48,613 bases of DNA from Cnuella takakiae. Lineage in GTDB: Bacteria; Bacteroidota; Bacteroidia; Chitinophagales; Chitinophagaceae. Location: NCBI RefSeq assembly GCF_001953305.1, contig NZ_MTFE01000010.1:4021008-4069620 (forward strand), read 5' to 3'. The notes beneath the pieces are model-generated. The model did no database searches and was not told the origin of the DNA. It saw only the letters and a list, made by a program, of their open reading frames with translations. A program made the translations under genes and the position numbers. Shown one piece after another: positions 17,784 to 21,185 of this stretch (the stretch's first letter is position 1; each line of letters opens with the position of its first letter).

Positions 17784-17830
17784 TCAAATGAAAATGCCTG
17801 CAGTTTTAGACTGCAGGCATTTTCATTTGA
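17784..17830. terminator. 20-bp perfect hairpin after the Dabb gene
   Basis: Arms 17784-17803 and 17811-17830 are perfectly complementary over 20 bp with a 7-nt loop (TTTTAGA). Adenines and thymines near the stem base would let it act as a terminator in either direction. It lies at the Dabb end of a convergent pair. Confidence 0.75.
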
Positions 17831-19221: not shown

Positions 19222-20265
19222 TCAGGCAACAAGCCCTACCCTACGGCTGTGCTCGATGGCATCTGTTGAATGCTGGAAAAAGCAGGTGGGTACGCCGGCA
19301 TCGGTAATTTTTTGCAGGACAGCTTTTACCGGCTCCCTGTTGGGTTCGTGTACATCGCGGATATAAACGGCGTGTATCCGCTCGGGGAAATGGCGCACCA
19401 GCGACTCATAGATATAAGGGTCCTGCTGCGAGGAATCGCCCAGGAGCACAAAGCGCTGCTGCGGATAAGCTTCCAGGATCCGCACGATCCGGGTAAACTT
19501 GGTGTGGTGGTTATTTTGTCCCGTTTTGAAAATCTGGCTGGCCAGTTTCAACACATTTAGCAGGAACACGCCACGCGGCAGGCCATTAACGGTTGTAAAC
19601 TCCATGATATAGTCATAAAGGTTCCACTCCGAGCTGCTGACATAAAAGAAAGGGTTGGGGGCCTCAGGCGTTGTATTACCCTGCGCCAGCAACTGGTAGT
19701 GTTGTACCACGCCTTCGAAGGGCCGCCTGCTCCGGGCATTTTGGGTAAATAAAACCTTGAGCCTTTTGCCCATATGGGCCGAGTGGGATACCAGGAAAGT
19801 ATCATCAATATCGGAGATGAACCCATACTGGGTGGGATAAGGAACATAAACGGACCCCAGACCCTCCTCCCGTACAGTGCCTTCTGCTGTTCGTACGGTA
19901 ATGGATACATCGTGCCAGCCGGGTTTGAGCGGCGGCTCGTCTTTCCATTCTACCCTGAAGAAGCCATCCTTTTCGGTACAGGCAGTATGCACCTGATTTT
20001 CCCACTGCAGGTGCACCATGGCGCCGCCCACCGGTTTCACCACGAACAGGCGAAGAAGGGCAATGGCATTGTGCACCACGCTTTTCCGGTAGCGCTTTGG
20101 AGGCTTGGGCCCCAAGCGCAACACGTGCCCATAGATCACCATCTTTTCCGTATGTCCATAACCGTGATAAACCTTAACCTGCAAACCGGCCTGTAAACCA
20201 AACCAGTAGAGCAGGCGTTTGCGCAGGCGGCTCAGGAAGGAAGGGCGGTGGTCATTTTTTTGCAT
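19222..20265 (-). CDS. App1-type phosphatidate phosphatase (DUF2183)
   Basis: 347 residues. The N-terminal half (about 30-140) is a beta-rich accessory domain. The catalytic HAD-like App1 domain begins near residue 145: GFISDIDDTFLVS carries the DxDxT motif (D152, D154, T156), and FVLLGDSSQQDPYIYESLV is the downstream acidic motif. Relatives (yeast App1) dephosphorylate phosphatidic acid to diacylglycerol, using D152 as nucleophile; in bacteria this is inferred from the motif. No membrane helix is seen. It is divergent from a diacylglycerol kinase-like gene 23 nt away, which runs the opposite reaction; both starts lie in one inverted repeat. Confidence 0.92.
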   Translation of the reverse strand: MQKNDHRPSFLSRLRKRLLYWFGLQAGLQVKVYHGYGHTEKMVIYGHVLRLGPKPPKRYRKSVVHNAIALLRLFVVKPVGGAMVHLQWENQVHTACTEKDGFFRVEWKDEPPLKPGWHDVSITVRTAEGTVREEGLGSVYVPYPTQYGFISDIDDTFLVSHSAHMGKRLKVLFTQNARSRRPFEGVVQHYQLLAQGNTTPEAPNPFFYVSSSEWNLYDYIMEFTTVNGLPRGVFLLNVLKLASQIFKTGQNNHHTKFTRIVRILEAYPQQRFVLLGDSSQQDPYIYESLVRHFPERIHAVYIRDVHEPNREPVKAVLQKITDAGVPTCFFQHSTDAIEHSRRVGLVA

Positions 20266-20297
20266 AGCTTAATCTCAACACAAAAGCTATGCAAAAA
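20257..20297. promoter_or_regulatory. Inverted repeat including both start codons of the App1/DAG-kinase pair
   Basis: Arms TTTTTGCATAGCTT (20257-20270) and AAGCTATGCAAAAA (20284-20297) are perfectly complementary (14 bp) around a 13-nt spacer. The ATG of each gene is inside an arm, so the two proteins begin with the same residues (MQK). It could be an operator for a dimeric regulator or a self-made hairpin at each mRNA 5' end. Confidence 0.7.
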
Positions 20298-21185
20298 GAA
20301 CACCCGCAGAAACTCCTCTTTGTGATTAACCCTGTTTCCGGGGGTAAAGGCAAGGAAGACTGGGAGCAGTTTATTCGCGAATACTTCCGCGAGCATACGC
20401 ACCAGATGGAGTTTTTTTTACTCACGGGGGCCGACGACAGTGTTTCCATTTTGCATCATGTGGAAACCATCAAACCCGATAAAGTGGTAGCCGTTGGCGG
20501 CGATGGCACCGTAAAGCTGGTGGCAGAACTGCTCAAAGGCAGCGCTTATACACTGGGCGTATTACCTGCGGGATCGGCCAATGGCATGGCCAAAGAAATG
20601 GGCCTTCCCCTTGACCGTACCGAAGCGCTTGAAGTAATCCTGTACGGCGAACAAAAAGCCATCGATGTCATAGCCATCAATGAACAGGAAATCTGCATTC
20701 ACCTGGCCGATATGGGCCTGAACGCCATGTTGGTAAAATACTTTGATGAGTCGCCCGGCAGGGGTATGTGGGGTTATGGCCGCTCCGTGCTGAAGATGTT
20801 GTGGAATAAAAGAGTGATCAGGGCACAGCTGCAAACCGACCAGGGCACCATCAACCGCAGGGCTTATATGATTGTGCTGGCCAATGCGCGGATGTATGGC
20901 ACTGGCGTTACCATCAACCCAAAGGGGGATTTGCAGGACGGCAAATTTGAAATTGTCATTGTCCGCAGCCTTAACTTCCTGGCGATCCTTAAAGTGCTTA
21001 CCTCCAAGGGCAAGTTTCCCGATGAGCATATTGAAGTTCATTCCATCAGCGACCTGAAACTGAAAACCCGGCACAAGGCCTATTTCCAGGTGGATGGTGA
21101 ATACCGCGGCAGGCTTAAAGAGGTACATGCCCGCATTGTGCCGCATTGCCTGAACGTAATGCTCCCGAAAACCGGTGACGTATAG
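20289..21185 (+). CDS. Diacylglycerol kinase-like lipid kinase
   Basis: 298 residues, one DAGK catalytic domain plus the beta-rich C-terminal domain. Signatures: NPVSGGKGK (nucleotide-binding loop, about residues 14-22), VVAVGGDGTVKLVAELL (GGDGT motif, about 69-85) and LPAGSANGMAKEMGLP (about 96-111). The C-terminal portion with VTINPKGDLQDGKFEIVIV is typical of the YegS/DgkB group. It phosphorylates a lipid such as diacylglycerol or a sphingoid base, using ATP; which one is not visible. It is divergent from the App1-type phosphatase, suggesting joint control of phosphatidate and diacylglycerol. Confidence 0.93.
   Translation: MQKEHPQKLLFVINPVSGGKGKEDWEQFIREYFREHTHQMEFFLLTGADDSVSILHHVETIKPDKVVAVGGDGTVKLVAELLKGSAYTLGVLPAGSANGMAKEMGLPLDRTEALEVILYGEQKAIDVIAINEQEICIHLADMGLNAMLVKYFDESPGRGMWGYGRSVLKMLWNKRVIRAQLQTDQGTINRRAYMIVLANARMYGTGVTINPKGDLQDGKFEIVIVRSLNFLAILKVLTSKGKFPDEHIEVHSISDLKLKTRHKAYFQVDGEYRGRLKEVHARIVPHCLNVMLPKTGDV

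Follow-up and report, generated by a model that had tools for sequence, protein, structure and literature searches.

The window, i.e., the whole stretch of 48,613 nucleotides from Cnuella takakiae that was analysed, carries two divergent genes whose start codons lie in the two arms of one perfect inverted repeat. The following features define the locus:

19222 to 20265, minus strand: App1-type phosphatase gene, 347 aa, with a DIDDT motif (PF09949)
20257 to 20270, plus strand: left arm of the repeat, TTTTTGCATAGCTT, which holds the App1 start codon (CAT at 20263-20265)
20266 to 20288, no strand: interval between the two start codons, 23 nt
20284 to 20297, plus strand: right arm of the repeat, AAGCTATGCAAAAA, which holds the kinase start codon (20289-20291)
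20289 to 21185, plus strand: YegS/DAGK-type lipid kinase gene, 298 aa, with a GGDGT motif (PF00781 and PF19279)

The families to which an earlier note had assigned the two products (App1-type phosphatase and diacylglycerol kinase-like enzyme) are upheld by Pfam profiles and by motifs: the App1 product matches APP1_cat (E 5e-44), and the kinase matches DAGK_cat (E 1.2e-24) and YegS_C (E 3.7e-16). By sequence, the closest relatives of the kinase with a solved structure are YegS and other DAGK-type lipid kinases, while the App1 protein has no relative of solved structure at E 0.01. Against the subfamily model TIGR00147 the kinase scores 116.9, just below the cut-off of 118.65, and it scores far below the cut-offs of the equivalog models. 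Judging from their domain families, the two enzymes are predicted to run opposite reactions. Both proteins open with MQK. A second App1-type gene is present in the same genome (G000:C1:298579-299562) and is 34% identical to the first.

Recomputation gave exactly what had been claimed for the repeat, namely perfect 14-bp arms with an ATG in each and 23 nt between the start codons; the arms are separated by a 13-nt spacer, and a looser extension of the inverted repeat to 21 nt is 86% complementary. In a 448.6-kb sample of the genome (the window plus 20 further stretches of the same 5.70-Mb genome), the 23-nt interval is the smallest of 46 divergent intervals between open reading frames of at least 150 aa, the next one being 51 nt. 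No perfect arm longer than 12 bp appeared in 30 dinucleotide shuffles of the window (spacer 3-30). Since real genomes are rich in terminator-like repeats, the 448.6-kb sample was used as a further control, and it does hold 40 distinct perfect repeats that are 14 bp or longer. With open reading frames of at least 100 aa as reference, these repeats fall into the following contexts: (i) convergent genes (18); (ii) tandem genes (14); (iii) unclassified, at edges (6); (iv) intragenic (1); and (v) divergent genes (1). The last is the start-codon repeat, the sole one of the 40 classed at a 5'/5' junction.

The 32 repeats between tandem or convergent genes are probably terminators. A terminator was also considered for the start-codon repeat and rejected, because its stem, read on the plus strand, has T at the beginning and A at the end, where a terminator would have the opposite, and because the genes meet at their 5' ends. 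Two other kinds of repeat were met in the same genome. The longest perfect repeat of the window (17784-17830; 21-bp arms, 5-nt spacer) lies between tandem genes and is terminator-like. An intergenic palindrome of the AAACCT-ATA-AGGTTT type, with 15-bp arms and a 3-nt spacer, recurs and is perhaps a repeated terminator; three of its four copies lie between convergent genes:

L094, 6193 to 6225: AAACCT-ATA-AGGTTT palindrome
L097, 17817 to 17849: AAACCT-ATA-AGGTTT palindrome
L100, 4463 to 4495: AAACCT-ATA-AGGTTT palindrome
L106, 12784 to 12816: AAACCT-ATA-AGGTTT palindrome

An inverted repeat in this register amounts to two start regions that are identical over 14 nt. Identity of at least 14 nt through the ATG was found in 2 of 58,311 pairs formed from 342 mechanically called starts (longest ATG open reading frame) of the same-genome sample, and the App1/kinase pair is one of the two. 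With about 580 divergent junctions per genome, as scaled from the 46 in 448.6 kb, about 0.01-0.02 such start-codon repeats would be expected per genome. The repeat is, in consequence, unusual and beyond chance within this genome, and a scan over many genomes would meet such cases; its rarity may leave room for selection.

What is conserved at this locus is the arrangement of the genes, not the repeat: the two genes are best read as an ancient, tight, divergent pair. App1-type and YegS/DAGK-type genes stand head to head, in several families, in all 108 fetched loci that hold both, i.e., 75 at genus and family level, five at order level, 27 at phylum level and the locus of genome G265. Similarity searches with either gene supplied these loci, starting from the best matches; App1 relatives at a greater distance do exist that lack a kinase. 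Within the genus, a close kinase match (E <1e-100) is found in 16 of 18 genomes, every one of the 16 with an adjoining divergent App1 gene, and the two other genomes (G012 and G013) have weaker, paralogue-like kinase matches. Across the 294 genomes of the family, the kinase (E 1e-60) and App1 (E 1e-30) are each found in 64, of which 63 are common to both; the exceptions are G135, where App1 is a fragment at a contig end (L062), and G265, where both genes are present and divergent and the kinase match is weaker. All 75 genus and family loci are divergent.

Farther away, the 30 order-level loci (a count that leaves out 16 rows without a locus) comprise 17 repeats of known pairs, five new pairs and eight App1 genes without a kinase match in the stretch; the latter belong to one other family of the order and have an App1 identity of 30-34%. 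At phylum level the pair is present in 27 of 27 newly fetched loci, 18 unfetched rows being left out of the count. The App1 DxDxT motif is kept in 106 of 107 loci (the exception, L062, is cut by the contig end) and the kinase GGDGT motif in 105 of 107, being absent from L127, a truncated stretch, and from L149. By an ATG rule, the gap between the genes has a median of 36 nt, is at most 50 nt in 55 loci and at most 100 nt in 80, and reaches a maximum of 247 nt in the 82 of 107 loci where it was assigned; the other 25 showed no clear ATG by that rule. A GTDB scan with the kinase as query returned three loci at 25-31% identity and no close relative. In the literature search, whose coverage mostly excluded subscription papers, no earlier report of an App1/DAGK pair was found.

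The repeat itself behaves differently. Of 107 junctions between these two genes, only that of the window carries its palindrome, as does only one of the 18 genomes of the genus; a search for further copies with 10-bp arms in this genome and in 17 relatives from the genus found none. Perfect arms at the junction reach at most 4-11 bp in 105 loci, against 14 bp in the window; the exception is L147, with 26-bp arms of a different sequence and a 49-nt spacer. The L147 repeat lies in a 247-nt gap, where a mobile or dispersed repeat seems to have been inserted. Likewise, sequence identity through both ATGs extends over 14 nt in the window and over 3-9 nt in the other 78 of 79 loci (9 in L044). Among 24 loci placed in a tree, L008 is the nearest sister (support 0.991); its gap is wider, it has the short core alone, and it retains the TTTGCAT and ATGCAA starts without the long repeat. 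With up to two mismatches, the two 14-mers occur 41 and 54 times, vs 21 and 26 for the reversed pattern. The closest relative found has about 66% protein identity, and the verdict on conservation covers relatives beyond that.

The idea of a shared, conserved switch, which the earlier note had put forward, is thus not borne out. That note had itself named the comparison by which its idea could fail, i.e., related genomes that keep the gene pair, and in those genomes neither the repeat nor paired changes are kept, which by that measure refutes a conserved switch; as the arms are not kept, there are no compensatory changes to analyse. The further suggestion that both proteins begin with MQK because of the repeat probably has the order reversed: in six genus members that lack the repeat (L005, L009 and L013-L016), App1 begins with MQ and the kinase with MQ or MH, so the ATGCA core is likely older than the repeat.

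Three modes of action had been proposed for the element, and two of them find no comparative support. The first, a DNA operator bound by a dimeric regulator of both genes, would suit a perfect palindrome placed over the likely position of both promoters, but it is very improbable: the palindrome is absent from the other 106 junctions of the pair, and neither its own genome nor 17 relatives from the genus has a second copy with 10-bp arms. Besides, the distance of 27 bp between the arm centres corresponds to about 2.6 helical turns, which would put the arms on different sides of the helix, and no regulator was found among the four proteins scanned with Pfam.

The second mode, a hairpin at the 5' end of each mRNA that masks its own start codon, draws on the folding energies, i.e., -22.4 kcal/mol (z -6.58) for the plus strand from 20255 and -17.5 kcal/mol (z -2.65) for the minus strand from 20299. 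Such a fold, however, would form only on transcripts that begin beyond the far arm, within the coding region of the other gene. With the starts predicted by the -7 boxes described below, the far arm is lost and the folds drop to -6.3 (plus) and -4.8 (minus) kcal/mol; long paired arms through both start codons are also missing in relatives, with only the short runs noted above in 78 of 79 loci. A masking hairpin is accordingly given as little credence as the operator. The third mode, competing promoters, stands as a possibility, since each arm forms a -7-like box directed at the gene that starts in the other arm:

20255 to 20263, plus strand: candidate kinase -7 box TTTTTTTGC, score 9.53 of 10.62, with a fraction of 0.00009 of window positions scoring as high
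20291 to 20299, minus strand: candidate App1 -7 box TCTTTTTGC, score 7.47, with a fraction of 0.00116 of window positions scoring as high

The scores come from the 9-position core of a -7 matrix (consensus TAtyTTTGC) trained on 210 upstream regions of the same genome with a gap of at least 80 nt, a threshold that leaves the App1/kinase junction outside the training set. With the spacing described for Flavobacterium johnsoniae, in which a G stands at -5 (PMC6847099), transcription is predicted to start near 20267 for the kinase and near 20287 for App1, with a 22-nt leader each, and the resulting RNAs would overlap by 21 nt. Such leaders agree with the median of 24 nt reported for F. psychrophilum (PMC9723704). 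Like the Bacteroidota sigma-A promoter as those two sources present it (-7 TAnnTTTG; PMC6847099, PMC9723704), the boxes have the TTTG core as well as this leader length, and the C that follows the core is common in the present genome. Unlike it, they depart from the full TAnnTTTG motif: TTTTTTTG and TCTTTTTG have one mismatch each, at the A of position -11, which is nearly invariant in the F. johnsoniae promoters described in PMC6847099 and is replaced by T in the left box and by C in the right one. Upstream of genes in the same genome, the variant TTnnTTTGC is more frequent than on the other strand (10 vs 2). No -33 TTTG was seen by eye at the expected place, and a sigma-70 scan found no promoter, as expected for the phylum. 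The TAnnTTTG boxes of this genome suggest by themselves a member of the Bacteroidota. In the genome sample, 7 of 29 TAnnTTTG boxes start 10-15 nt before the called ATG (L107, L094, L105, L096, L106 and the window), which suggests leaderless mRNAs or starts called too far upstream.

Taken at full strength, the two boxes would make a symmetric face-to-face promoter switch, in which each gene has its -7 box in the arm that covers the start codon of the other, the starts lie about 20 bp apart and cross, one polymerase acts at a time, and the mRNA 5' ends are complementary over about 21 nt. In its favour, the arm is the best -7 match on each strand within 20201-20340, the predicted leaders are symmetric, and polymerase exclusion has been described at bidirectional promoters (PMC12825309). 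Nevertheless, the A at -11 is missing from both boxes, position 20598, within the kinase gene, offers a better match on the App1 strand (8.18 vs 7.47), and App1-direction boxes show no excess in relatives. A switch of this kind is therefore considered unlikely. The candidate promoter elements of the window are strong on the plus strand and moderate on the minus strand.

In relatives, kinase-direction boxes recur in some loci, whereas App1-direction boxes are not above controls. Within 60 nt of the kinase start, TTTGC has 26 sites on the kinase strand vs 2 on the other, spread over 24 of 79 loci. It lies away from the chosen App1 start in 13 of them (L063, L067, L068, L071, L074 and L118 included) and coincides with that start in 11, so protein constraint could explain part of the signal. 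In the genus, kinase-strand TTTGC is present at 13 of 16 junctions vs a shuffle mean of 3.8; outside the genus it is near or below shuffles (19/59 vs 14.4, 3/5 vs 2.5 and 1/27 vs 3.4). The longer TAnnTTTG motif is found in the 27 class-level loci on the kinase strand in 8 and on the App1 strand in none (shuffle mean 3.4), seven of the eight being at nearly one place, while 4 of the 59 other family loci have it on the kinase strand and 5 on the App1 strand (shuffle mean 5.0). App1-direction TTTGC has 5 sites vs 12 on the other strand, and over 74 loci the matrix as a whole is weakly above shuffles (46 of 74 on the kinase side, 43 of 74 on the App1 side). The loci are related, so none of these counts is independent.

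A neutral accident would dispense with promoters altogether: neither arm would be one, and the core would have been perfected by chance or by quasipalindrome template switching. The sister L008 has the same starts without the long repeat, the box signal outside the genus is near shuffles by most measures, and template switching can yield perfect stems (PMC8794818). Yet this account leaves unexplained both the top-ranked -7 match in the window and the kinase-strand excess in genus and class-level loci, and it too is rather improbable. The locus does resemble the template-switch products of PMC8794818 in that a short imperfect repeat has been perfected in one lineage; unlike those cases, it is seen here without a close relative to catch the event.

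The reading preferred by a slight margin over even chances combines overlapping promoters with an ancient and tightly spaced divergent pair; the left arm would be part of the kinase promoter, and the full symmetry would be specific to this lineage. As the start codons are 23 nt apart, each promoter must reach into the opposite gene and would lie at least partly within it. The left arm would then serve as the kinase -7 box and the App1 start codon together. A short ATGCA/TGCAT core would have been extended to the perfect 14-bp repeat in this lineage, either by ordinary substitution or by template-switch correction, and the repeat itself would not be a conserved regulatory element. If the two genes are coupled at all, the cause would be competition of RNA polymerase for overlapping promoters rather than a dedicated operator or hairpin. 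The perfect palindrome is probably a local peculiarity superimposed on such promoters and of local interest only. A bolder version, which we doubt, has each gene's promoter built into the first codons of the other, with polymerase choice and 5'-complementary mRNAs setting the kinase/phosphatase balance in a module kept across the phylum, of which the window would be the most symmetric form. These readings overlap in part, and the likelihoods attached to them need not add up to certainty.

The closest known systems are the bidirectional promoters of Escherichia coli and Salmonella, where starts on opposite strands lie 7-25 bp apart and one polymerase acts at a time (PMC12825309, PMC10268837). 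As there, two opposite transcripts would arise here from one short, near-symmetric stretch, with starts that are predicted only (20267 and 20287). Unlike those promoters as described, which share a -10 element and yield diverging RNAs, the -7 boxes of the present locus would, if used, face each other and give overlapping RNAs, and the sigma factor consensus differs.

In any case, the gene pair is a better lead than the repeat: predicted opposite enzymes co-occur, head to head in every fetched locus with both. In a phylum whose promoters follow a code of their own, the pair would be a simple case of expression coupled through overlapping promoters. The pairing would also suggest that the product of the kinase is what App1-type proteins of bacteria act on.
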